The notes under the pieces are model-generated. The model was not told where the DNA came from, searched no databases, and was given only the letters and a program-made list of their open reading frames with translations. A stretch of DNA of 64,000 nt from contig CM028338.1 in NCBI GenBank assembly GCA_016647705.1, positions 20,791,577 to 20,855,576 of the forward strand, read 5' to 3'. Shown here piece by piece: positions 14,212-64,000 of the stretch. Made by a program: the position numbers and the translations under genes. The stretch's first letter is position 1. The number at the start of each line of letters is the position of its first letter. The DNA comes from Eucommia ulmoides. Its lineage: Eukaryota > Streptophyta > Magnoliopsida > Garryales > Eucommiaceae.

Positions 14212-16198
14212 TATTGATCGTAAGATTTTGATGAACAATTAAGTATTATTGTTTTGGTGGAACTAATATTTTGATTCAATGTTTCACTTTTAAAGTTCCA
14301 GTGACGAAGATGACAAATTAAATGGATGCTAAATGATGATATTGAAGATATAGAAGAATTAAGAGTTTGAAGAAATTAGGGAAAACATCTCAGGTGAATC
14401 TTAACTCTTAATATCCCAATTAGGAACACACATAACACAAAATGTATTTTCTTATTTATGTATGTTTTGATTAAATGAAATTATTTGCTCCTATGTGATT
14501 TGAAAAGAAATATTTTTTATTGACTAAAATGGAATATAAAAATATTAATGGAGCTTATTTAGAAGAGAAAATGGTTAAAGGGGCGAAAACGTAAAAGAAA
14601 ATAAGTTAAAAACGTGTTCAGAAGAGAGATCCAGAAGGCATCAATCGACTGATAAGTCGACCGGACCAAACTGGTGAAAGATCCTATATCTCTAAGTCGA
14701 TCGACAGGTCGACCGACCAAGAGGAGCTGAACTCTCTGAATCTACAAGTCGACCGGATGCGCTGTTTCAGAATACTATTTTATCCAAGATTATATCCAAA
14801 AGTATCCATTTTTTGTTGGGATTTGAGAGAGATTTCGGGGATATTTTCTATATTTAAGATATGGTTCACATATTAATTAAATTCTATTAATATGGTTAAT
14901 TGAATATTAATATTTCTCAATTTGGTGCTTAAAATTGATTCTATTCTTATTAATTGAGATTGAGAAATATTTAGAGGGTTTAATTGAAAGATTTGAAAGC
15001 TGTTTTTAAGTGAATTGAACCTAAATGAAGTCATTATGATATAAGGGGTCTAAAAGTGCTATTAATTGTTATAACACATGTAAAGTAGCTGTTAAAAGGC
15101 TGATTTCATACTCCTATATATTGACCTACGGATTTCTTATATAAAACATTGAGAGAGCAAAGAAGTTAAGATCATTTGTAAGCTTTTTTATGAGTTATCA
15201 TATTAAGATATTGTGAACTTTTCTGAGAGATGATCTTGAAGATCAATTGCCATTAATCTTTGCTGCTACCGAATTTGAAGTTACATTGTTCTAATCATTC
15301 TTTCTGTGGATTTCGGGTGAGATCTTTTCAATTATATTCTTTCATTGCATTATCTGATTATTGTTTGGAAATTGATCTTAGAAATTGTTTTTGATTTTTG
15401 AAGAAAATATTTTTACAAACAATTTCTTGAATCTGATTACGTGCTCTAATTTGCTACCCATATCTTAGTCAAAATCATATTTTTCTATCTCATATTTTTC
15501 TATCACTAGATTGAGATATTAATTGAGTTATGATTTATCTGAGGTGATAGAAGCTCTGAGTGAGATTTCCTACTTATCATTTTTGGTGAGTAGTGTGATG
15601 GGTTAAATACTGTTGGGGGTATTTAAATAAGGATAGTTGGTTTTCAATCTCTTCTTGTAAAGAGATTGAGGTAGTGATTATTCCTGGATAGAATTGCGAT
15701 TTGAGTGATTTGTAAAGGTTCCATCCTTACCTAGGAAAAGGATACCTGGAATGTTTTGTGAGGTTTTGATTCTTGAGCCTTAGTGTTAAAAAGAATTAGA
15801 TTATTCTTTAACTTGTAAAAAGTAGAGGTTCTTTATTAGCTTGAGAAAAGGATATTATAAAAGTTGATTATGAGCTTATAAAAGAATTGGTGTGATGGTT
15901 TGGTTCCTACCTTTAAAGGGATTTTGGTTTTAGTGGGTTCGACCTCCGTGGAGCTCGGGTGACTGGATTAGTCAAGAGTAGCTTGGTGAACTAGTATAAA
16001 TCTTTTGTGTGCTGCTATATTTACTTTGTTATTTTTACTGTTTGGGTGTGCACTTAGTTAATTATATTATTCCGCTGTGATGTAAAGATAATAATTAATT
16101 TAGAATTAAAATTAATTATTTGATTTATTGAATTTTATTCTGATAATTTTTTAATTACCCAATTCACCCCCCCTCTTGGGTATTCCACTGGGCCAACA
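14212..16198 (+). repeat. Solo LTR of SIRE/Maximus-type Copia inserted in the Copia element
   Basis: 1987 bp starting TATTGATCG and ending CCAACA, flanked by TTTGA (14207-14211) and TTTAA (16199-16203), a near-perfect 5-bp duplication. The end with AATTCACCCCCCCTCTTGGG and the GTCGACCG-type palindromes at 14650-14755 resemble SIRE/Maximus LTRs. No internal element DNA remains, so the element was probably lost by LTR recombination. Family name from memory of the LTR end. Confidence 0.72.
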
Positions 16199-25980: not shown

Positions 25981-27127
25981 TGTAACGACCCGGATTCTCA
26001 GGGCCGCCACGCAGTTTCTCCATTTGGAGAATTAATACTAAAATTGAATAGTCAATATTTCATTTTATAAAAAATCGAGAAATTTTACAAATTACGGCGA
26101 TTATTATAATTAGCCATCTATCGAGTCAATTTTATAACAGTAAATAATAAATACAATTATTATAAATTAAATAAAAATTCAAATAAAATTTCACACACCA
26201 CACCATTTTCATCAATACTGCAATAAAAACTGTAGGATTATGAGCTAAAGTTCAGTATAATTTTTAAACTCCTTTACTACATGCATTTAATCAATTCACA
26301 AATAAAACACATAGACATGTTTTCTACAAATTTTTTTACATAATAATCCCAAATATATCATAAAAACTAACAATTAAAAATTAACAACAATTTTAGCATG
26401 AATCATATAATGAAGAGAGAGAGATTAATCACAAATATTAAAAGAGTTTGAAAATCTACTCCCCTTAAATAAATTCCATCCTCAAAATTTCATTCAAAAC
26501 AATAATAATTCAAAATCGCACTGTACGGTCATGTTAGTTACACTCAATCCTAGAACAATTTTTCTCTACATAGGGTCCCGTAACCGAAAGTCACAACCAA
26601 TCCACATCTCAACAAATTTCATATGATGTATCGTCATTTCCGCATTTACGGTGGTCCATACTTTATTTAACATAACTCAACATGGTACACTTTGGTTGGT
26701 AACACCTAACACTGATAATCAATTGCCAAATAATCTTATATTTCTAAATACTTCTGCTGCACCATTCTGATAAAACTAGTAATATATATCACAAACGAAT
26801 ATATTTTTAAAGTATCACGGTAGTCTCATTTGGATTGAGCCTACCTCTATGCCAATAGGTTCATGACCTTAATTTTTTTTTTTACTCGGCATGACATTTC
26901 AAGTCCATTGTCATATTCCATAACCAACATTGATCAATTTCATCCAACATTTTAAGCCAACAGATTCGTAACAAACATCATAACCAGTAGATAACCCAAA
27001 TTCCTCATAGATTGCCCCCTGAAACTAAAAATAATCATCTCCAATATCCACATCAACATTCCAATAATGTCGTAAACGTTTTAAAAAATATCAACACAAT
27101 CCAAACTTCAAATAACAGATTTTGTGA

Positions 27128-27375
27128 AATACGTTTGAAAATCCATAAATACCTCTCGCTTACATAAAAACGTGCCAAAATATATAAATACTTCTTAACC
27201 ACATAAATACGTCTTAATTATATAAATATGTCTCGAAACACATAATTACGTCTCAACCACATAAATACGTCTGAAAACACATAAGTACCCCTTAGCCACA
27301 TAAATATGTCTCAAAATGCATAAATACGTTTCAAACCATATAATTACGTCTCAATCACATAAATACGTCTCAAAA
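27128..27375. repeat. Minisatellite based on CACATAAATACGTCTCAA
   Basis: About a dozen imperfect units of roughly 18-20 bp with the core CATAAATACGTCTC. A larger homologous array lies in D2 at about 52690-53125. No function is evident. Confidence 0.85.
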
Positions 27376-27837
27376 GTTCAATACTCACGTAATATAGCAA
27401 GTTGAATAGTCACGTAACGTGTATCATAATATAACATAACCCTTCTCTCCCCCACTTGAATTTCTAGAATATCGTTTAGGTTCAAAGTAAAAATTAATGT
27501 AAAACGTATATAAAACTATTATATAAAGTTCTCCAAAAGTCTCAACAATTACTCCACACTTTGATCCTACCAATTATTAGTAGTGGATCAATATCTACCT
27601 AAATTTTTTATCCGTGTTCTGTCTTCATAAGACAAAAATAACTTATGGATCCAATATTTTTTTTTTATCAAAACTCATTTTCAACAAATATTACACTGGG
27701 AAATATTAAAATTCCACAAATATCATAGAACAACCAAATTTAAATCAACAGATCAACTTAATTTTTACATAATAAAGTATCATATTTTTTTACTACCCAT
27801 AGGATCGTTTTATCTCCCAATCGGGAGTTATCATATC

Positions 27838-28270
27838 AACTACCTGCAGAACTTGCCTTCCTCACTGGTCTTAACACAGAATATCCATACTCAATTCCAT
27901 ATTCAACTTCTCCTATCAAATCAATAACATATTTTTATCACCTGCAAGACTTACCTTTCTGTAAGGTCCAACAACATATCTGTTTTATCCATAATCAATT
28001 TCATATTCAACTCCACTATATTATATCGTCAATACCATATTCAACTCCACCATATTAATAATCAATACCATATTCAATTCTACCACATTATATCGTCAAT
28101 ACTATATTCAACTCCATCATATTAATAATCAATAACACGTGGTACAAACCACCATATTATACCGATAATCATTGTCAACAACAACAATATATATCAACTA
28201 CCTGTAGGACTTGCCCTCTTGATAGGTCACAGCACAACGTCCTACAGGACATGCCCTCTTGTAAGGATTA
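27838..28270. repeat. Dispersed CTACCTGCAGGACTTGCC units in D1
   Basis: Units of the type CTACCTGYAGRACTTGCC followed by YTCYTGNNAGGTC recur at about 27840, 27942, 28200 and 28240. Relatives are found in D2 (53565-53730) and, in opposite orientation, in the LTR of element E (61425-61765). Confidence 0.75.
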
Positions 28271-28639
28271 AAATATATTGACGAGACAACTATGACATAA
28301 CATGATAGAATTCATTTTCCACCTTCAAAATTTTACTTGATTTATTTAACATCATAAAGCTGTCCATTTTCATCAATATATATATATTTTTTTACAATTT
28401 AATACGAAAAATATAATTTGATAGTTTATATAGAAGACAGTAAACATCTTGAAACTGATCTTTTTGAAAACTTATCCTATAGTCCACAACACTCACCTAG
28501 TCTACAGAATATATAACCTAAACTCAATAACAAAACGAGTTCAATACAAAATACTCAGAAATATGTATAACGGGAGCAAAGTGAAATAATGATCATTTTT
28601 AACTTCAGTGGTGCAAAGTGTCGAAAACCCAAAATAAAA

Positions 28640-29092
28640 TATTAGAATCTATTTTTGTTATACAAGCAACCAAACCTGCCAATTAAATGAGTATTTTATA
28701 CTATTATCAATAGTAGGAACTGCCAAATTCCTGAGCTGCCATGCCTATTTTAGGAAATGCAAGAAACCATTTGTAGACAATATGAAATCGTTTTTTTTCC
28801 ATCCAATTTCAGGTTCTTTCTGTTGTAGTATATAAATGATGGTTTTATTTGCTGCATGCTGTTTTGCTAAAACAGGCATCAGTTACCATTTGAAAGTTAA
28901 TCTATTCGAATTTTGGAACCTATTTGAACTAAAGAAAATTTACATCTTCCTGCTATATAACTTAAGAAATTTTATATTTACTTTTTTTTGGTTTAATTGA
29001 TTTGCCATCTCCGTAGCAATTTTTTTTTTTTTTTTGGGAATATGCATTTTTTTGCTTTCAGTTTGTTGGATTAATTTTCATAATTTCATCAG
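28640..29092 (+). pseudogene. Probable captured intron DNA upstream of the PRR7-like exon
   Basis: This T-rich stretch, absent from the sister element D2, ends in CAATTTT..., CTTTCAG and finally TTTCATCAG directly before the PRR7-like exon, as a 3' splice site would. I infer that it is host intron sequence carried along with the exon. The left edge of the captured piece is uncertain (between about 28630 and 28700). Confidence 0.5.
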
Positions 29093-29254
29093 TCTAGTGG
29101 TAGTGGGAGTGAAAGTGGTATACGCACTAAAAGATCCACGAAGTCGGGAAGTGTTGATGGGTCAGACAATAACACTGGTAGCAATTACGAGGATGAATAT
29201 GGTAACATTGGCTTAAATGTTAGGGATGGAAGTGACAATGGAAGTGGAACCCAG
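29093..29254 (+). pseudogene. Captured exon of a PRR7/PRR37-like clock regulator in D1
   Basis: The 54 codons read SSGSGSESGIRTKRSTKSG near the start and GLNVRDGSDNGSGTQ at the end. Arabidopsis PRR7 has SSSGSGSESG directly after its receiver domain and GLNASDGSSDGSGAQ some 45 residues on; plant PRR37 proteins are even closer. These proteins are transcriptional repressors of the circadian clock. The piece begins after CAG and ends in CAG at 29254, consistent with one whole exon, then turns at once into the retroelement's primer-site region. It lies antisense to D1. No receiver or CCT domain is present, so it cannot be a working gene. The identification is from memory of the PRR7 sequence. Confidence 0.82.
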
Positions 29255-29265
29255 ATATGAATCAT

Positions 29266-29277
29266 GCTCTGATGCCA
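29266..29277 (-). other. D1 primer-binding site (initiator tRNA-Met type)
   Basis: GCTCTGATGCCA is the complement of TGGCATCAGAGC, one base from the standard initiator-Met site. It lies three bases from the LTR that starts at 29281. Confidence 0.75.
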
Positions 29278-29820
29278 CTTTGTTAACTCGATTTCCAGGG
29301 TCACCACACAATTTCTCTTTTTGAAGAATTATTACTAAAACTAAATAGTCAATATTCTATTTTATAAAAACCGAGAAATTTTACAAATTATGACGATAAT
29401 TATAATTACCGATCTATCGAGTCAATTTTACAACAGCAAAAAATAAATATAATTATTATAAATTAAATAGAAATTCAAATAAAATTTCATATATAACACC
29501 ATTTTCATCGGCCCTGTAATAAAAATTATGGGATTGTGAGTTAAAGTTCAGTAGAATTTTTAACCCATTTACTACATCCATTTAATCAATACACAAATAA
29601 AACACATAGACATGTTTTCTATATAATTTTCATATAATAATCCAAAATATTTCATAAAAACTAATAATTAAAAATTAACGACAATTTTAGCATGAATTAC
29701 ATAATGAAGAGAGAGATTAAACACAAATATTAAAAGAGTTAGAAATTCTACCTGAAATCTGAGCCGAAATTCAAATCGAGAATAGTTTGCTCTCAAAAAA
29801 CCATTTAGATTATATAATAT

Positions 29821-31320
29821 TGATGGAGGTAAATTTGGTTATGAAAGGTCACACATGCTGGGAAACCCTCTCTATGCCGAGTACGAATAAAGATCCGAGC
29901 TGCAGTGTCTAAGCACCCTCAGCTTGGACATATCCAAAAGGGGGACCCTCAAACCCTTTCATCTATACAAGTGTGCGGAACAGACTGAGCCGTGGTGTCT
30001 GAGCACCCCTAGCTCGGACATATGCAAAAGGCAAGTCTCAAACCCCTCCAGATTGTTCAGATATCATGTTACCAAGCTGAGGTGTTCAAACACCCTCAGC
30101 TCTGGCAACATCTAAATGGGAAACCCCCAAATAAAGATCGAAGAACAAGTTACCGAGTTGAGGTGTTCGAACACCCTCAGATCGGGCACCATCCAAAAAG
30201 GGGTTCTCAAATGAAGAAGTATCCTCACCGAGCTGGGGTATCCGAGCACCCTCAGCTCGGGTTGTTTACAAATTGGAAAACCTCAATTGGGATTGAAGAC
30301 TCAACGCCAAGTTGAGGTGTCCGAGCACTCGCATCTTGGTCAAATGCAAAATGAACACCCTTAAAAGAAAGTTCAAGTTACCCTGCCGAGCTGAGGTGTC
30401 TAAGCACTCTCTACTCAGATTAGTGCAAAAAAAAATAATCCTTAAAATGAAGGTTGAAGCTACATGGCCGACCTGAGGTGTCTGAGTACGCTCAGCCTAG
30501 ACTTATGTAGAAATATAGGGCCATCCAAGTAAATGATGAAGCTACATGGCCGAGCTGGGGTGTCCGAGCACCCTCAGCTCGGATCATCTCTAAATGAGCC
30601 ATCTATTTCCTCCTTGAAGATCACCATACTGAGCTGACAAGCCTGAGTACTCTCAGCTCAAATTCTCCTTGATATGGGGCCTCTTAAAGCCATTTTGAAG
30701 TTACCAAATCCATTTTTATGCCCTCTCCACCTACTAATCATCCAGAAGGGCTAAAAACGGGTCATTACTCCCCATTTCAAGTGGGTCGGCCCATAAACTT
30801 CTATACAGTGGGCCTAAAAGCCCGGTCCAGGTGATTAAGGCCTTAATCCACAAGCTCATTGGCTGTCAAACGAATTTGCTTAATTAACCGAGCTCAGCTC
30901 CCTAATTTCACAGTGCTAATCAAGCCCAACGCTCTATAAATACTCTTTGGCATCCATTACCCAAAGGTACATGCTTCTAAGTCACTCTAGAGCACTATTA
31001 GCCTTTCTTCCCGAATACTTATTCTCATTCCGGAGGGATCTCACTGGGCACAACCCCGGTAGGCTTTTGTGTAGGTGCTCAGAGTTTGGTGTCAGAGCTT
31101 AGCTCAAAGATCAGAACAGAGTCCAAAAAGGAGTTTAACTTAGAGTCTGAACAGGATCTTAGAGTTTGGTGAGGAGCTAAGGTTAGATTGTAAGGATTTC
31201 CCAAGCATCAGAAGTTTATTGATTCCGGGATCACCAGTTCGTCACCTCCACGTCAGCAACAAATTTTCACATGCTACCTGCTTAAATCATACTGTGGTTG
31301 CTCACCATTTTTTGACATCA
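29821..31320 (+). repeat. Gypsy2 5' LTR
   Basis: 1500 bp, starting TGATGGAGGTAAATTTGG and ending TTTTTTGACATCA. Its first 480 bp match 59349-59827. It contains a hairpin array (29900-30660) and a TATA-like CTATAAATACTC near 30933. Confidence 0.85.
29900..30660 (+). repeat. Array of hairpin units in Gypsy2 LTR
   Basis: About nine units, spaced 70-90 bp, each of the form CCGAGCTGAGG, a short spacer TGTCCGAGCA, then CCCTCAGCTCGG, so each folds into a stem of up to about 11 bp. The 3' LTR copy has the same at 59420-59800. Related units occur in the 3' non-coding part of the element (55790-56160). Confidence 0.85.
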
Positions 31321-45548: not shown

Positions 45549-46160
45549 ATAGGCCCCACTACTTGCACAATACCCTGCGGACCGCAAAGACCAAAGACTA
45601 TTTTTGTAATGACCCGGTTTCCCAAGGCTGCCACGTGATTTCTCCATTTGGAGAATTAATACTAAACCTGAATGACCAATATCTTATTTTATAAAAATCT
45701 GAGAAATTTTACAATGCTCCAATAATAAATATCGATTTATTGAGTCAATTTTACAATAGTAAATAATAGATACAATTATTACAAATTAAATAAAAATTCA
45801 AATAAAATTTTCGACGCAATTTTATTCTCACCGACCCTGTAATCAAAACTGTGGGGTTGTGAGCCAATGCCCAGTAGAATTTTAACCCGTTTAATATGTG
45901 TATCCAATCAAACCCCAAATAAACACATAAACATGTATCTTACATAGTTTTTATAAAATATCCCTAAATATTTCATGAAAATTAACAGTTAAAATTTAAC
46001 AACAATTTTAGCATGAATCACATAATTAAGAGAGATATTAAATACAAATATTAAAAGATTAAAAAATTCTACCTGAAATCTGAACTCGAAATCCTAAACC
46101 AGAATCAACCTATATATATATAATACATGGATTTCTTCACCACCCTTCTTCTATTATATT

Positions 46161-46183
46161 TTATCTATCTATCTATCTATCTA

Positions 46184-46267
<84 letters not shown>
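46161..46267. repeat. Compound microsatellite (TATC)n(TC)n(AT)n
   Basis: About seven TATC units, then TC units, then about 25 AT units, within the D2 left LTR. The right LTR has a simple (TA)n at 55203-55244 in the same place, so the arrays have diverged since insertion. Confidence 0.95.
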
Positions 46268-46270
<3 letters not shown>

Positions 46271-46705
46271 TATTATCATGCATTACACTTGTCCATTTCA
46301 TATATAGGTAATTATGCATGTATCATATTACGTGTCCACTTCATATGTATAGAGAATTATACATGCATTTTTATTATTATTATTATTTTATTATTATTTA
46401 CATTTAAAATCCTCTTAGAATAAAGAATATATTAATTATAGCTCAAAATTCTTAAAAGTATTTTAAATATTACAATAGTTCCAAAACTTTTAAAATCAAT
46501 TTAAAATTAACACTTAACTCCCAAAAATTATTAGATATAATTTATACCATAAATTTATAAAATAATCCAAAAAATATTAAATTTCTATGAATAAGATTTT
46601 CAAAAAATACAAATTTTTAGGGTATTACAATCTACCCCCCTTAAATAAATTTCATCCTCGAAATTTCATTCAAAAGAATAGTAATTCAGAATCGTATTGC
46701 ATGGT

Positions 46706-48436
46706 TGATAGGTGTGAAAAACCTATCTATTTCCAATCCGAATTTGTTAGTTTTCGAATATGCTTATATAGTATTTTATTATGTTTTAATTAATTTTCAT
46801 ACTTTTTGTATAAATCAGATATGTGGGTCAAAAAGATAGGAAACTGGAGCTAAAACGATGAGATCAAACCAAAGCAGTTCGAAGTTACGGTGGATAAACA
46901 AGCCCGGAGGCTAAAAAGATGAAACAGGCCCACCGCTTAGGAGTCTAGACCACTGCCTAAGCGGTGAAGATGCTGAGAAGTGCAAAATGTTACTGATGGA
47001 CGACCGCCTAGGCGAAGATTCTATCGCTTAGGCGAAAATCCAGCAGAAGACGTAAAAGGGCTACTGACAGTCGCTCGCCTAGGCAAAGTTTTCTTCGCCT
47101 AGGCGGAAATCCAACAGAATGTTCTCCCAATCCACCGCCTACTTCACCGCCTAGGCGATCAGACCGAATCAACCTAACTCCGCCTAGGCGAAGAATTCAC
47201 CGCCTAGGTGGATTTTTCCTGCACAGTCTTGAGATATTTTTAGATATTTTTAGGATATTTTGGCTATAAATATCCCCTCTCCTCCCCCTTAGCCGGTGAC
47301 TCTCTTGTCCCTATGGAGTTTTTAGCCCCGTAGGCTATATCTAAGGGTATAGTTAGGGATTTTAGTGGTGGAGCTCACATCCCGAAGTGGAGAAGACGGC
47401 GAATCGATCGTTGAGCGTTCTTAGTGGTTTATCTTCGGACGAGGCTAAGTTCTTCAATTGTTTTTCCTTATTTCTTTATCTTAGGAGTATGTGAGCATGT
47501 TTAGCTCATTATTTTCTTGTATATGCAGCTATGGCCTCAAGTTAAATATGGATTGTAGTAGGGATTAACAATAAATTTATAAATACGGTGTTTGGATGAT
47601 TTCGGTGTTTCGTTTGTGAGTGTTCTTCGTAATTTGATTATATTTATCATATTGTTTGTTTATTATGCTTAGAATGGTAAATGGAGAATACAAGATTTTA
47701 ACAAACCTTGGATTCGGATTAGGGTAAACAAACACCACAATTTTATAACCCGGTCGGGGTTTGAATCGTGGATAATCGATGACGTGGGGCTAAACACACG
47801 TGACCTAGGGTCGTTAAGACGTTGAGGGGGACTTCTTTGTTGACTCGAAGTTGCGTTATATCCCTTTGTCTTACACTCGGAAGAGGTGGTGAGGGAGTTT
47901 TAGAACGGAGATTGTCGATAGGGTAAATACAACGCGACGATCCAATAACCCGGGAGGGAGTTGGATTGTGTGCAATCAATGACGCTGGGCTAGACTCACG
48001 TGATTTAGGGTCATTAAGATGTTGAGGGGGACTTCTTCGTTGGCTCGAAATCATGTATTCCCCCGTCTTACACTCGGAAGACGTGGCGGTGGAGTTTACG
48101 TACCAAGGTTGTCAAATAGGTCGAACAACGTAAACATAAGTAAATCGAGATCAAACACGTATTTGTAAACACGTTAATCCCTAGGAGATTCTTCACCCTA
48201 AAACATAGTAGCATATTAATGTAGTTAATTTAGGTTATATTAGTATTAGTTTAATTAATTAATTACATTTGTTTTTCGCCTAGATAAACTTAGGTCACGA
48301 TAAATGCGGTATTCGATAGTAACGACACCAATCCCTGTGGATACGATAACCCGATCTTAACGATCACACTATACTAAAACTTAGACCTCGTATACTTGCA
48401 AGTGTAAGTAGCGGCGTGATGTTTCACGCGCTACCA
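46706..48436 (+). repeat. LARD C 5' LTR
   Basis: Contains at least six CGCCTAGGCG-like palindromes (46930-47215), a TATA box TATAAATA (47265-47272) and the tandem duplication at 47710-48110. Confidence 0.92.
46930..47215 (+). repeat. CCTAGG-core palindrome array in LARD C LTR
   Basis: GCCTAGGC cores recur at intervals of about 20-60 bp up to 50 bp before the TATA box. The 3' LTR has the matching array at 50650-50925. Confidence 0.85.
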
Positions 48437-52142: not shown

Positions 52143-52689
52143 ATGGTCATGTTAGCCACACTCAATTCTAGAACAATTGTTTCTATGTAGGGTCTCATAA
52201 CAGAAAGTCATCCACAATTCATAACTGACAAAATTCATTCCACGCATCGCCACATCTGCATTTGCGGTGGCCCACATTATACCTAACATGGTGTACTTTA
52301 GTCGATAAACCCTAACATAGATAATTGTAAAAGATTTTTATGCTTTTGAATACATCTGCTACGCACTCTGATAAACATAATTGTAATAGTGATATATTTT
52401 TAAAACATCAAGGTAGTCTCACTAGATTGGGTCTATCTCAATCCCAACAGGTTTATTATCTTAATAATTTTTCCACTTGGCATGACTTTTCAAGGCCATT
52501 TCTATATCCCATTACCAACATTTCAAGCCAACCTATTCACAACTAACATCATAACCAGTAGATAACTCAAATTCCTTGTTAACTGTCCCGTGAGACTGAT
52601 AATAATCATCTCCAATATCCCCATTAAAATTCTAATAATCTCATAAACGTTTTCATAAATATCAACACAATTTAAACTTCAAATACAAA

Positions 52690-53125
52690 TTTTCTGAAAT
52701 ATATTTGAAAACACAAAAATATCTCTCAACCACATAAATACGTCCCAACACACAAATACGTCTTAACTGTAAAAATATATCTCGAAACACATAAATACAT
52801 TTCACGCACATAAATACGTTTCAAACCGCATAAATACGTCTCAATCACATGAATACGTGTCAACCACATAAATACGTCTAGAAACACATAAATACATCTC
52901 AACTAAATAAATACATCTCAAAACACTTAAATACATCTCAATCATATAAATATATCTCAAAACACATAAATACATCCCAATCACATAAATATGCCTCAAA
53001 GCACATAAATACGTGTCAAACTACAAAATTCAAATACGTCTCAAATAAATGCGTCTTAATCACATAATTATGTCTCAAACATTGGAATACATTTCAAACA
53101 CAAAGGATATTTCGTCTCAAAAGTC
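52690..53125. repeat. Minisatellite CACATAAATACGTCTCAA in D2
   Basis: About twenty imperfect units of roughly 18-20 bp. Homologous to the shorter array in D1 (27128-27375), with a different copy number. Confidence 0.88.
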
Positions 53126-53559
53126 AATACTCACGTAACATGATGAGTTCAATACTCAAGTAAAACATATATATAAAAGTACGCCAAAAGTCTCAACAAT
53201 TTCTCCACACTCTGATTCTTCCTATTGCTAGTAATGGACCAATATCTATCTGAATTATTTTATCGGTGTATTGTCACCATAATACAAAAATAATTTATAG
53301 ATCAAGTATTTTATTCAAAATTCACTTTTCAACAAAATATAGCCACATACTTGGCAATATCAAAATTCCAACAAAATATAACTACTCACTTGTCAATATC
53401 AAAATCCCAACAAAATATCATCATAATAGAACAATCGAATTTAAATCGATTAGTCAACTCACTTGTATATAATAAAATACCATATTTTTTACTAGCCATA
53501 GGATCATTTTATTTCACAATCGGGAGTTATGGCGGTACCATAACCTATACATATCAACA

Positions 53560-53735
53560 ACATATTCAACTACCTACAGGACTTACCCTCCTGTTAGGTC
53601 TCAACATATCAATAACATATTCAACTACCTACATGACTTACCCTTCTGTCAGCTCACAACACAACGTCCTACAGAACATGCCCTCCTGTAAGGGCCAACA
53701 ACATCTCGCAGAATATGCCTTTCTGACTAGATAAC
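53560..53735. repeat. CTACCTACAGGACTTACCCT units in D2
   Basis: Three or four imperfect units around the core CTACAGGACTTRCCCTYCTG. Relatives lie in D1 (27838-28270) and, inverted, in the E LTR. Confidence 0.75.
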
Positions 53736-54700
53736 TGTGGCATAGCAGGATAATAAAAATAATTTTTTCACGCTTAAAAATTTACTTAATCCATTAATCA
53801 TCGTAAAACTGTCCATTTTTAGCAACACATTTTATTTCATTTTTTAATTTAATACGAAAATAAAATTTGATAGTTTACATAGAAGACAGTAAATACCTTT
53901 AAGCCGATCATTTCAATTCAATAACATATCCTATGGTCCACGACTAACACGGTACTAACCCAACCTCACTTTACTTACTATAGGTATGTTGCATTAATCA
54001 AACACCACCTAAGATGTTAATATGTTCAAATTGAAACTGTAGAGATCAAAGTGAAATAATAGTAACAACACATAGGTGCAAAGTGTCAAACCACCGAAAA
54101 AATATAATGGAGACGTCAATGCATGCAAATATAGACCCAACCCCAATCCTTGCACATATGTATAAGTACTATAGCACATCTTGTGTTCATGTAGGCTTAA
54201 TATATCACATCACAATTATTCCATTAATGGAGATAAAACAAACAAAACAAAATTATTTATTTATTTTTATTTTATATATATTTGTTAATTTTTATTTATT
54301 TTTACAACCAAACTGCAAAAACACAATAATTTTTAAATCCAGTAACAATGAACCTGTAAATTGAATAACAACTAAACAGGCCCCAACAATATGAAAATAA
54401 ATTAACACAAAAATCATAGCCTCCTTGCATTTTTTTTTCAAGTTGTTTCATTTTCACCACAATAAAAATCATTAAATAGAACAATTGTTTACGTTCTAAT
54501 CGAAATTTAAAGCCCCGTTAAGTTACTTACAAATCTCCAGTAAAGAATGATTTCAAAATCTCTTTCAATTGCTTTTTATTTATTTTTTATATTTTTTTTA
54601 AAATATAAATTATTATTTTTAAGTATTACTTCACTTATCATGAGTAATGAATACCATAACCCAAGCTTAGGGTAGTCATAAATTTTCTCCAATACCACTT

Positions 54701-55199
54701 TGTAACGACCTGGTTTCCTAGGGCAGTTACGCAGTTTCTCCCTTTGGAGAATTAATACTAAAACTGAATGACTAATATCTTAATTTATAAAAATTTGAGA
54801 AATTTTACAATGCGACGACGATAAATATCGATTTATTGAGTCAATTTTACAATAGTAAATAAAAGATACAATTATTACAAATTAAATAGAAATTTAATTT
54901 TCGGCATAATTTCATTCTCATCGGCCCTGCAATCAAAATTGTGGAATTGTGAGTCAACTCTCAATAAAATTTTAACCCCTTTAATGCGTGTATCCAATCA
55001 AACCCTAAATAAACATATAAACATGTATCTCACATAATTTTTACAAAATGTCTCCAAATATTTCATAAAAATTAACAGTTAAAATTTAACAACAATTTTA
55101 GAATGAATTACATAATCAAGAGAGAGATTAAATACAAATATTAAAAAAGTAAAAAATTATACCTGAAATCCGAAGCCAAAATCCTAAACCGAAATCAAC

Positions 55200-55248
<49 letters not shown>

Positions 55249-55636
55249 TACATGCATAGTAATAAGTGATAATTTATATATAGAAATTATAATTATGCAT
55301 TACACTTGTCCATTTCCTATATAGGCAATTATGCATGCATCATATTACGTGTCCACTTTATATGCATAGAGAATTATGCAGGCATTATTATTATCATTAT
55401 TTACATTTAAATATCTCTTATAATAAAAAAATATGTTAATTTTCTCCCAAAACTCTTAATAGTATATTTTAAATATCATAATAGTCCCAAAACTTTTAAA
55501 ATCAATTTAAAATTAATATTTAACTCCCAAAAATTGTCAAATATTATTTATACAATAAATTTACAAAATAATCCCAAAAATATTAAATTTATATGAAATA
55601 ATATTTTCAAAAAATATAAATTTTGGGGGTATTACA
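54701..55636 (-). repeat. D2 5' LTR
   Basis: 936 bp, starting TGTAACGACCTGG on the plus strand and ending GGTATTACA. Matches 45605-46629 apart from the microsatellite tract. Confidence 0.85.
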
Positions 55637-59348: not shown

Positions 59349-59827
59349 TGACGGAGGTAAATTTAGTCATGAAAGGTCACACGTGCTGGGAACCCCTCCC
59401 TATGCCGAGTATGAATAAAGATTTGAGATGTTGTGTCCGAGCACCCTCAGTTTGGACATATCCAAAAGGGGGACCCTCGAACCCCTTTCATCCGTACAAG
59501 TGTGAGGAATAGATCGAGTTGCGGTGTTCGAACACCCCCATCTCGGACATATGCCAAAAGGAAGTCTCAAACCCCTCTAGGTCATTCGGATATCATGTTA
59601 CTGGGTTGAGGTATCCGAACACCCTCAACTCGGGCAACATCCAAATGGAAAACCCCCAGATAAAGATCGAAGAACGAGCTATTGAGCTGAGGTGTCCGAA
59701 CACTCTCAAATCGGGCACCATTCGAAAGGGGGTTCTCAAATGAAGAAGTATCATGTCCGAGCTGCGGTGTCCAAGCACCCTCAACTCGGCTTGTCTACAA
59801 ATTGGAAAGCCTCAATTCGGATTGAAG
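59349..59827 (+). repeat. Gypsy2 3' LTR, first 480 bp only
   Basis: Matches 29821-30302, including the hairpin units. It stops where element E begins; the remainder would lie beyond the window. Confidence 0.85.
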
Positions 59828-60214
59828 TATAAGACCCTAATTTCTGCATATGCATAATCCTTAGCTGTATTTTAGAACATTTAGAAAATAACGGGGTAGA
59901 ATGTGTCATTTTTAATTTAATTTAAAATTTTAGGGGCTAATTAGCAATTTAAAAAAAATATTAATTATAGATTTTGTGTTTCACTAATAGCCTAAAGAAA
60001 ATTTAGGGGGGATTAATGTAATTAACCATAAATATATGCATACCAATTCTTCATGGAGGTGAGCTCATAAGATCACTCCCTCTGCATATATATAAATACA
60101 TCCATACACACACATTACAAGAGAACTTAAAAAGAAGGAAAAAAAAAATCAGAGAACGAGGGAAGTGGGTCGGCGGGGTGTCCAGTCGATGGTGTGGGAG
60201 TTGTCCGACAGTGT

Positions 60215-60521
60215 GTGTTTTGGCATGTGTGTGTGTGTAATCGTTGCTATTCAGCCGACGGTGGGTATGGGTGTGTTTTCCATACAGTGTGTGTGTGTGT
60301 GTGTCGTTAGCGGTGTAGTTGTTTGGTCCGGCATGTGTGTGGGTGTAGACGGTTACGGGTGTGTGTGTTCAGTGTCGGTCGTTCAGTCGTCGATTGTGTG
60401 TGCGCTGGTGGGTGGGTCTTCCATCGATTTCGTGTGTGTGTAGGTATCAGTCGTTCGATGGTGTGGTGTCACCGTTTGGCCTGGTTATGTGTGTGGGCAT
60501 TGTTGCTCTCCGTTCAGCCTA

Positions 60522-60567
<46 letters not shown>

Positions 60568-60860
60568 TACGCACTGTTTGTGTAGGTGTTATTCAGCGTC
60601 GTTGTGTGTGTGTTTCTGCGTGTGGGCGGTCGATCGTCGGCCGGCTATGATAGTGTGTGTCTGTGTATCGGCGTGTGTGTGTGTGTGAGCAGATTGTTTG
60701 GTCGCCAGCTGTGGGCGGTGAGTGTTTCGGGTGGGTATTGTTGTCCGTTAGGCGGGTATTCTGCTGACTATGTGTGTGTGTGTGTGTGTTCTGCGCGTCG
60801 GTGTGTGGGGGTGTGAGGTCACCCGCGGTTGGTGGGAGTGGGTGAGGGTGTTTCGGCGAG
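60215..60860 (+). repeat. TG-rich low-complexity region in E LTR
   Basis: Interrupted (TG)n with a pure run at about 60525-60560, mixed with GTCGGT/CGGTGTG words. The open frames here (Val/Cys repeats) are by-products of the repeat. Confidence 0.85.
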
Positions 60861-61424
60861 AACCCAAAAACAAAACAAAAAAAATAATAAAACCCAAAAA
60901 TAAAAAACCCCTTCTTGGCCGGCTGAAGTTTCGGAACAGGTAAAATTTTAGTTGATTATTGTTTTCATCAAATTAAATTATTAACAGTAAATTTTTATAA
61001 TCTTGATAATAATTTTGCAACTATTAATTTTAATAATTTTGTACAGTGAATATTAACATAACGGAATGGGGTAAATAATAATTTTGCATAACTAAATTTG
61101 GGAAATGGAAAATTGTGCATTTTAGGGCCACGCATTGCATATTAGGGTTATTTTAAATAAAAATATTAATTTAGGTCCTATCACTGTTAGATTCACAGGC
61201 GCCAGCGTCCCGGTAGTTTTGACGTTGGTATTTTTGCAGTGCGGAAATCGAGGTGAGTGTACTGTCTTCTATGTAAATTTATAAATTATATTTTTATATA
61301 AATTGTGGAAAAAAAAAGTGTTTATTAAAATTGGACGATTTTATGACTTATGTGGATCAAGTAGTTTTTAAATGTGGAAAATTACTTTTGTCCGACTGTG
61401 CCATTGTTTGATCCCGTCAAGAGG

Positions 61425-61765
61425 GTATGTCCTCCGAGATGGTATTGACCTGTTAGGAGGGGTGGTTGATTATATTATGACCTTTCAGGAGAATTAGTCA
61501 TACAGATGGTTGATTATTATGACTTATCAAGAGGATTAGTCCTGCAAGTGGTTGTTGATATTATGACCTGTCAGAAGGATTAGTCCTGCAGGTGGTTGAT
61601 TATTATGACATGTTAGGAGTGTCAGTCCTACAGGTGATGGATTATATTATGACCTGTCAGGAGGATTAGTCTTGCAAGTAGTTGATTATTATGACCTGTC
61701 AGGAGGATTAGTCTTGTAGGTGGGTGATTGACCAGTTAGGAGTGCAAATCCTGCGGGTGGTACCC
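61425..61765 (+). repeat. Tandem array of about 55-bp units in E LTR
   Basis: Six or seven units containing GACCTGTCAGGAGGATTAGT followed by CCTGCAGGTGGTTGATTATT. The pieces AGGAGGATTAGTCCT and CCTGCAGG can pair with themselves. Homologous, in reverse, to the internal repeats of D1 and D2. Confidence 0.85.
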
Positions 61766-62441
61766 CTACCATTGGGGATAATAAATGGCCCTGGTACTGA
61801 TAATCACATTAGATGACACAGTTGTACAGGTTACAGTACCGTCGTAACTCCTGATCGTAAGGTAAATACTATCCTATAGCTAGTAGGAAATAATGTGTGG
61901 GGTATTTTATTATACGATGAACTGCCTAGATTGATTGATTTAAATATATTATTTTAAGTGGGTTGACGTAAATATATTATTTTATGGCATTGGTGACAGT
62001 GAAAATTGATTTCCAGCCTAGTATAAGGTTATATGATATTATATTTTGAAACGTGGTATTTGATAATTGTGCTTGATCCATAAAATATTTTTATAGTATG
62101 AAGACAGTACACCGATAAAATATTTGGTTTCAAGTATTGCAATTAGGAGTGGGTCCACCACTGGCATTAGGTAGAGTTCGGAGGTAGTGTCATTTTGGAG
62201 GTAGGTCAGTCGGATGCGAACTGTGGGAAGTTAAGCCTTTTTGTGATTTTTGTTGTGAATATTTGGGACCGGTATATTCCCAAATGTTGAAATAGATATA
62301 TGTATTATTTGGGGAAAAAATTGTAGTAGAGCATGTGTGTATATATATATGGATGAATATTCGTTGATAGAGTCAGTAGTGTCAAATCGACGTCACGCCC
62401 GGTCTTGGGTAACGGGTACCCAGGGTGGGTTGTGACATTTG

Positions 62442-62457
62442 TGGTATCAGAGCCAGG
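62442..62457 (+). other. Element E primer-binding site (initiator tRNA-Met)
   Basis: TGGTATCAGAGCCAGG, the standard plant initiator-Met site, four bases after the LTR end. Confidence 0.9.
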
Positions 62458-62622
62458 TTATAGGTTCTGTAGACGTGTCAGTTGGTCTAGTCAGTCGTGG
62501 ACGTTGAGATAAGATGACGATAGGCGGGTTCGGCACGTGAGTGGTAGTTATTTTATTAAATTAAATATTGTTGTTTTTCTAGTTGGCCCAGTTGGTTATT
62601 AAATTTTATTTCGGATAGTGAA

Positions 62623-63641
62623 TATGGAGCATGAAAACGAGACTTCTGGGAGTGTGGGACCCCAAAGGCAGAAAGACAGGAAGTAGGAAAGTTTGGATGA
62701 CGTTGAAAGAATTTTATAGGCTGCTGCACAGTTGACAGAGCAGCAGGCGAAAATACTGGAATGCCAAAGAGCCCAAACGGACACAGCTACTTCCCAGGCA
62801 ACACTTATGAAAAGATTCAAGAAGTTGGATCCTCCGGTTTTCACAAGAACTGCGGGTCCAACTGATGCCAAGAACTGGTTGAGAGGCGTGGGGCATGTAT
62901 TTGAGGCCATAGGGATTATTGATGATAGCCGAGTACCTCTTGCCACCTTCCAGTTGAAAAAGGAAGCCGAACATTGGTGGGAGGAGATGGAGGAGTTACT
63001 TTCAATACCAGGCAAGGAGATCACTTGGGATCGATTTGTTGCGGTGTTTAATGAGAAATATTTCCCTGAATCCTATCGATTGAAAATGGAGTAAGAGTTT
63101 ATTTGAAACAAGGGAAGATGATCGTCAAGCAGTACGAAGTTAAATTCGATGCCTTGTCTCGCTTTGTCCCTGATTTAGTAAAAACGGAAGAGGCGAAATG
63201 TAGACGATTCCAAAAAGGCTCAATTTAGAAATCCATTCCAAGCTAATGAACAGACAAATTAAGAGTTACACTGAATTGGTGAATACGGAAAAATTAGTAG
63301 AAAGGGATGTTCAGGAAGCTGCCGAGAGTCGCGAACAGTACAAAAGGAGTAGATTCGAGTCACCTAATAGGTATCCAGGTGGCACTTCTCGAGAAGTGGT
63401 ATCTCGACCGCTAGTTTCTCGGGCCCCATTGATTGACCATTTCGTTAGGAGCCGAGGTCCACGGCAGTCTTACTCTGGGCGATAACAGAATGTATCTAGA
63501 TTGAGTGTTGGCCAGCAAGGGCCAAGAAGGAATCAGGCATTTAGTCAGGCCGAGATATTTGTATGCTACCAATGTGGATCACCGGATCATTTTATTAGAG
63601 ACTGTCCTATGGCGAGTCCCGTATGTTTCCATTGTCATGAG
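62623..63641 (+). pseudogene. Element E gag remnant
   Basis: Starts with an ATG at 62623 (MEHENETSGSVG). The capsid region has DAKNWLRGVGHVFEAIG and KKEAEHWWEEMEE, then ITWDRFVAVFNEKYFPESY, as in chromovirus gag. A CCHC knuckle CYQCGSPDHFIRDC lies at about 63561-63602, and a second one begins (CFHC) where the PRR7-like exon takes over. Fossil with a few breaks. Confidence 0.85.
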
Positions 63642-63731
63642 TCTAGTGGTAGTGGGAGTGAAAGTGGTATACACACTAAAAGATCCACGAAGTCGGGAAG
63701 TGTTGATGGGTCGAACAATAACACTGGTAGC
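63642..63731 (+). pseudogene. PRR7/PRR37-like exon fragment joined in frame to gag of E
   Basis: Thirty codons reading SSGSGSESGIHTKRSTKSG and on to NNNTGS are in the same frame as the gag zinc-knuckle region before them. They differ from the D1 copy (29093 onward) at 3 of 90 bases by my count. The fragment starts at the same base (TCTAGTGG) as the presumed exon start in D1, but here without the intron-like DNA. The right end is hidden by the LARD inserted at 63732. Confidence 0.8.
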
Positions 63732-64000
63732 TGGTAGCACGTGAATACGCCGCTACTTACACTCGCAAGTATACGAAGTCAAAGTTTTAGAATAGTGGAT
63801 CGTTTAAGATCAGGTATCGTGTCCATAGGAAAAGTGTGAATAATTGAGTACTGCAATTTACGTAGTCTCATATTATCCTGACGATTCAATTTAATATTTA
63901 ATTTAAACTAATTAAAACTACTCCTAAGGATTAATTCTAATTACACTAATTAACTATGGATCAATTTCATTCACTTAGTACCTATTTGGCTTAGTTTAGT
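63732..64000 (-). mobile_element. LARD LTR, minus strand, running off the window
   Basis: TGGTAGCACGTGAATACGCC, then GCTACTTACACTCGCAAG, is the complement of the LARD C-type LTR end. It matches that LTR in reverse to the window edge. The five bases before it are GTAGC (63727-63731), the presumed target duplication; the other end is outside. Confidence 0.85.

Follow-up and report, generated by a model that had tools for sequence, protein, structure and literature searches.

The in-frame join between a retroelement gag and an exon of the clock gene PRR7, found near the right end of the window (the whole 64,000-nucleotide stretch analysed, C14:20791577-20855576), is very probably the scar of a DNA deletion between two LTR elements, E and the PRR7-carrying X', with the exon edge and the reading frame both met by chance. 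Ordinary genome decay, and not a new spliced gene, is most likely what is seen here. The original prediction had described the same parts, namely PRR7, gag, a kept frame, an exon edge and 87/90 identity with a further PRR7-carrying copy, D1, and this description has stood; its proposal that the join arose by read-through and splicing has not. The junction would show that an in-frame fusion at an exon edge can arise without an RNA step, and it is the next 2 kb that decide the question. The features on which the argument rests are collected in Table 1.

Table 1. Features at the gag/PRR7 junction and in the related copy D1 (window coordinates)
Feature	Position	Strand	Remarks
D1, other X copy with PRR7	25981..29820	-	colinear with L034, L035 and L036
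PRR7 DNA inside D1	28721..29272	+	89.4% identity to L009:4564-5101
X primer-binding site, reverse complement GCTCTGATGCCA	29266..29277	-	where PRR7 meets X
Z' repeat, insertion site of E	59349..59827	+	85% identity over 480 bp, stops exactly at 59827
E 5' LTR	59828..62437	+	aligns with relative L012 from its LTR start (position 365)
E primer-binding site TGGTATCAGAGCCAGGTT	62442..62459	+	direct reading
E gag remnant	62624..63641	+	Pfam, stops, frames, 37 genomic relatives
Breakpoint interval	63640..63643	+	AGTC common to PRR7 and TC-type gag relatives
First 90 bp of PRR7 exon, SSGSGSESG...	63642..63731	+	in X', antisense to X; 88/90 to C12, 87/90 to D1
Y target duplication GTAGC	63727..63731	+	second copy L010:1128-1132, perfect
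Insertion Y, left part	63732..64000	+	LTR-like, TG...CA, 1,396 bp, continues to L010:1127

The open reading frame that crosses the junction (63486-63737) translates as ...CYQCGSPDHFIRDCPMASPVCFHCHE / SSGSGSESGIHTKRSTKSGSVDGSNNNTGSW followed by a stop. Its gag portion runs, as had been claimed, from a partial second zinc knuckle directly into PRR7 sequence, the three-frame translation giving CFHCHE and then SSGSGSESGIHTKRSTKSG. A search of the 947-Mb genome, which encodes PRR genes, with 63560-63731 as query returned 40 matches, scores having been computed for the best 40 of 718 candidates. The junction itself accounts for one, two match on the PRR7 side only (the C12 gene and D1) and 37 match on the gag side only, these last being the gag relatives referred to below. 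A 30-mer across the junction occurs once genome-wide with up to three mismatches allowed. The breakpoint cannot be narrowed to one base owing to the AG or AGTC that PRR7 and the gag relatives have in common.

The host sequence on the right of the junction belongs to a PRR7-type gene at the C12 locus L009, in which an exon of 162 nt (L009:4922-5083) is preceded by ...TTTCATCAG, followed by GTATG, and placed in frame after the receiver exons, in keeping with the earlier assignment to the segment behind the receiver domain. The gene translates as VWRKCHSSSGSGSESGIHTKRSTKSG; Pfam recovers from its single exons part of a receiver domain and the beginning of a CCT motif, neither reaching its curated cut-off, and we take the gene to be PRR7, and not another PRR, partly by its likeness to PRR7 sequence. 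The C7 and C11 paralogues of PRR7 stand further off than the C12 gene, and the C7 copy has the identical acceptor, TTTCATCAG / TCTAG. Since 63642 matches L009:4922, the exon base after the acceptor in both the C12 and the C7 genes, the exon does start at the base that had been presumed. Over 63642-63731 there are two mismatches in 90 to L009:4922-5011 and three in 90 to D1 (29093-29182), which bears out both the PRR7 identity and the figure given for D1. Position 63731 is not the end of the exon: Y breaks the exon there, and past Y it resumes at L010:1128, completes, and runs unspliced into GTATGAATCATGCTCTGA, with which the following intron of the C12 gene opens. This is followed by TATCACTTTGTAACAACTCG..., which is the primer-binding site and LTR of element X read backwards. 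Among publications judged by their titles and the beginnings of their abstracts, none was about capture of PRR7.

On the left of the junction, the anatomy is that of element E inserted into the repeat Z', of which a related copy, Z (29821-30298), extends beyond the point where E breaks Z'. The 5' LTR of E begins with TATAAGACCC (TGTAAGACCC in relatives) and ends with GTGACA, the right end having been placed with the help of L011 and of direct reading, and the primer-binding site that follows is presumably complementary to initiator tRNA-Met. Within the gag remnant, Pfam Retrotrans_gag scores 24.0 bits over 62720-63091, just under the cut-off of 24.1, and the first zinc knuckle is intact (PF00098 zf-CCHC, E 1.6e-7, above its cut-off), with no Pfam match to the second knuckle, which is cut after CFHCHE. 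In the relative L012, the 10 of 20 listed ORFs that were scanned contain zf-CCHC, RVP_2, RVT_1, RNase H and SH3_Tf2-1, with Retrotrans_gag again just under cut-off and no match to a chromodomain; judged by the gag, protease, RT and RNase H of this relative, E is a Ty3 LTR element. Neither an E pol nor an E 3' LTR was found across the 93-kb stretch around the junction.

The gag of E is broken several times: the frame of the ATG at 62624 has stop codons at 62684 and 62717, the frame that reaches the junction has one at 63483, and there are two changes of frame in the three-frame translation, near 63090 and within 63200-63230. The fused frame itself closes at a TAG inside the left end of Y (63735-63737). 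Despite its kept frame the join thus specifies no intact fusion protein, and a functional gag-PRR7 product is rejected. A tandem array of units of about 44 nt (TATGACCTGTCAGGAGGATTAGTC-like) lies at 61461-61731 inside the E LTR and is matched also in L011 and L012.

With queries extended beyond both edges of insertion Y, the similarity begins at 63730-63732 and ends at L010:1127 in all five relatives fetched. Y is possibly a solo LTR, and its family is probably very numerous (11,932 first-look candidates, 40 of them scored in the genome search).

The element in which the PRR7 sequence is embedded, X, is represented by relatives at L034, L035 and L036 whose LTRs begin, on the window plus strand, with TGTAACGACC or close to it and whose internal regions measure about 2.5-2.9 kb. 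Paired LTRs and the duplication AGTCA at L036 identify X as a true LTR element. L036 and L034 have 19 listed ORFs between them, and the 10 scanned hold no retroelement domain, a single weak match being to an unrelated family and under its cut-off, so that X is, by its domain content, probably non-autonomous. D1 consists of a 3' LTR piece (25981-about 26453), an internal region and a 5' LTR from 29281, both LTRs being incomplete, with the PRR7 host DNA between the two LTR pieces; its 5' LTR is cut off at 29820 by Z, beyond which a sequence comparison gave no missing outer LTR end. The PRR7 DNA in D1 takes in upstream intron, all 162 nt of the exon (29093-29254) and the beginning of the intron after it, and replaces the 388 bp of leader that L034 has beside the primer-binding site. 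No PRR7 match was found at that site in L034, L035 or L036. The joint between PRR7 and X falls at the identical base in D1 and X', and the X and PRR7 parts of the two are 87.6% identical over 651 bp, that is, they are diverged copies. The presence of PRR7 inside X in D1, complete with upstream intron and with the same-base joint, suggests that the cargo is older than the join to gag.

The composite of E and X' is bounded on the left by the U3 end of E and on the right by that of X, which is inversely oriented. Each element retains one outer LTR end without its remainder, and no other half that could be assigned to either was found in the 93 kb around. Further pieces of X lie in this stretch at 45605-46706, 52145-55636 and 74401-75244; the last cannot be the other half of X', since it lies on the wrong side of it, and in the first two the LTRs show 78-80% identity to X', compared with 87.6% for D1, so that all three are read as separate copies. 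The composite is flanked by TGAAG on the left and ATAAA on the right, which differ at three of five bases and form no matching target duplication. No continuation of Z was found to the right, and direct reading of the right side gave no poly(A).

We infer from this anatomy a deletion, at the level of DNA, that preceded the arrival of Y. X would first have taken up an unspliced piece of PRR7 beside its primer-binding site and later have been duplicated into D1 and X', the latter coming to lie near E in opposite orientation. Illegitimate or microhomology-mediated end joining would then have removed E rightward from inside the second zinc knuckle, the intervening DNA, and that part of X' which preceded the PRR7 exon, the ends being joined within 2-4 bp of common sequence, with frame and exon edge met by chance; Y would subsequently have inserted into the exon.

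The amount of common sequence varies with the base that E lost after GAG. The two bases following GAG are CC in 15 of the 37 gag relatives, TC in nine, CT in nine, TT in three and CA in one, and the exact microhomology is correspondingly AG with CC, CT or CA, AGT with TT, and AGTC with TC. The breakpoint lies inside an imperfect 8/9 match, TCAT(G/C)AGTC, to the TC-type gag. At random junctions the chance of at least 4 exact bp is 0.020, that of an 8/9 match 0.0013 and that of at least 2 exact bp 0.176. The similarity of TCATGAG to TCATCAG is read as having helped chance to bring the break to the exon start. Against a deletion it counts that the base after GAG is C in 25 of the 37 relatives, in which case the microhomology would be AG alone, common by chance (17.6% for at least 2 bp); that the flanks are old, with altered terminal bases at both LTR ends, so that the two 5-mers could have diverged too; and that neither the DNA supposed to have been lost nor the state before joining has been seen. 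Were the break placed at random along the 552 bp of PRR7 DNA, the breakpoint interval would take in the exon start in about 0.9% of cases and either exon edge in 1.8%, by simple ratio, and the frame would be kept in a further 1 in 3. This coincidence at the exon edge (about 1-2%), together with the kept frame, is the main reason why confidence in the deletion, high as it is, stops short of certainty.

A different DNA-level event, whether an inversion, a translocation or break repair that took up a truncated cDNA of E, would give the same junction sequence as a simple deletion. It is considered unlikely, as no third copy of the upstream part of PRR7, the expected reciprocal product, appears among the best 40 of 2,057 candidates, though such a product may have been lost, and as the left end of E is a normal LTR end. 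Less probable still is a template switch between co-packaged RNAs or cDNAs of E and X, resulting in a chimera with two U3 ends that integrated once. The LTR ends at both outer edges, the inverted orientation and the microhomology at the switch point would suit such an event, but the flanking 5-mers do not match, and Z does not continue on the right even though E had inserted into Z. According to the available portion of PMC1950507, complexes without flanking duplications derive from recombination after integration and those with duplications from template switching, and by this distinction the unequal flanks favour recombination after integration.

The RNA-level origin advanced in the original prediction, in which splicing linked gag to the PRR7 acceptor in a read-through RNA of E that was then reverse transcribed and integrated, has in its favour that the junction lies at a true 3' splice acceptor and that the frame is kept. 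It is nevertheless rejected as highly improbable. A donor would have to stand directly after GAG, the sole breakpoint phase that leaves AG at the intron end, and neither GT nor GC occurs there in any of the gag relatives (0/37). The PRR7 piece runs on into an unspliced intron and X, and a spliced product is not expected to keep the start of the next intron and a reversed X LTR. E likewise has its full U3 end and X' its outer end, with unequal flanks, no poly(A) on reading and no E 3' LTR in 93 kb. An assembly artefact uniting two unrelated repeats, conceivable in a region so rich in them, is scarcely credible given the coherent flanking anatomy on both sides and the presence of Y, with its perfect duplication, inside the PRR7 part.

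The preferred deletion has parallels among LTR elements that recombined or were truncated after integration. Chimeric and partial elements formed through microhomology are described from the maize centromere CEN10 in the accessible part of PMC4806543, and the elements there and in the corresponding part of PMC1950507 resemble the present composite in being partial or chimeric and lacking matching duplications; the short microhomology frequent at their joints may be a further likeness. The composite stands apart in uniting two unrelated, inversely oriented families, of which one bears a piece of a host gene. The complex elements of Triticeae attributed to template switching also consist of two fused LTR elements, but, as far as the same part of PMC1950507 describes them, duplications flank them and their outer LTRs are alike, neither of which is found in the E/X' composite.

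The earlier capture of PRR7 by X beside its primer-binding site is the more interesting part, more so than the join to gag: a segment of a clock gene has been built into X and is present in two copies, which makes this a case in which the capture of a gene by a retroelement with no coding domains detected can be dissected. At the primer-binding site the PRR7 intron and L036 have 9 bp, ATGCTCTGA, in common; L035 has 8 bp of these in common with PRR7, and L034 reads GCTTTAATACC, without ATGCTCTGA. That PRR7 sits beside this site, and that L036 matches it there over nine bases, is compatible with aberrant strand transfer. Tentatively, and with somewhat more doubt than confidence, PRR7 may have been taken up in this way during reverse transcription and transposed again as D1 and X', the joint with gag being a later accident. 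The plus-strand strong-stop DNA of X, which ends in a copy of the primer-binding site and normally targets the minus strand of X itself, would have landed on the PRR7-sense strand through the nine bases, with the outcome that the leader of X was replaced by an antisense, intron-retaining host segment and the new element moved once more. As a route of PRR7 into X, microhomology-mediated DNA repair fits too. As in the gene capture by plant LTR retrotransposons covered in the available portion of a review (PMC13317346), which refers to surveys in rice and sorghum, X has a host-gene fragment between its LTRs and exists in two copies; its fragment differs from those cases in being unspliced and antisense and in replacing the leader beside the primer-binding site.

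D1 is not favoured as the direct template of the PRR7 sequence at the junction, because at the one informative base, 63673, the junction copy agrees with C12 and not with D1, though D1 may also have changed afterwards. That D1 was locally duplicated as a segment was likewise discarded, as the pieces common to D1 and the surroundings of X' differ in their order. A degenerate tandem array (CACATAAATACGTCTCAA-like, spaced 19/39 nt) lies in the internal region of X copies at 27138-27375 and 52707-53020. A further repeat occurs downstream of X', where C14:20860314-20862399 (L010:4738-6823) is 90.5-91.5% identical, piece by piece, to 14214-16198.
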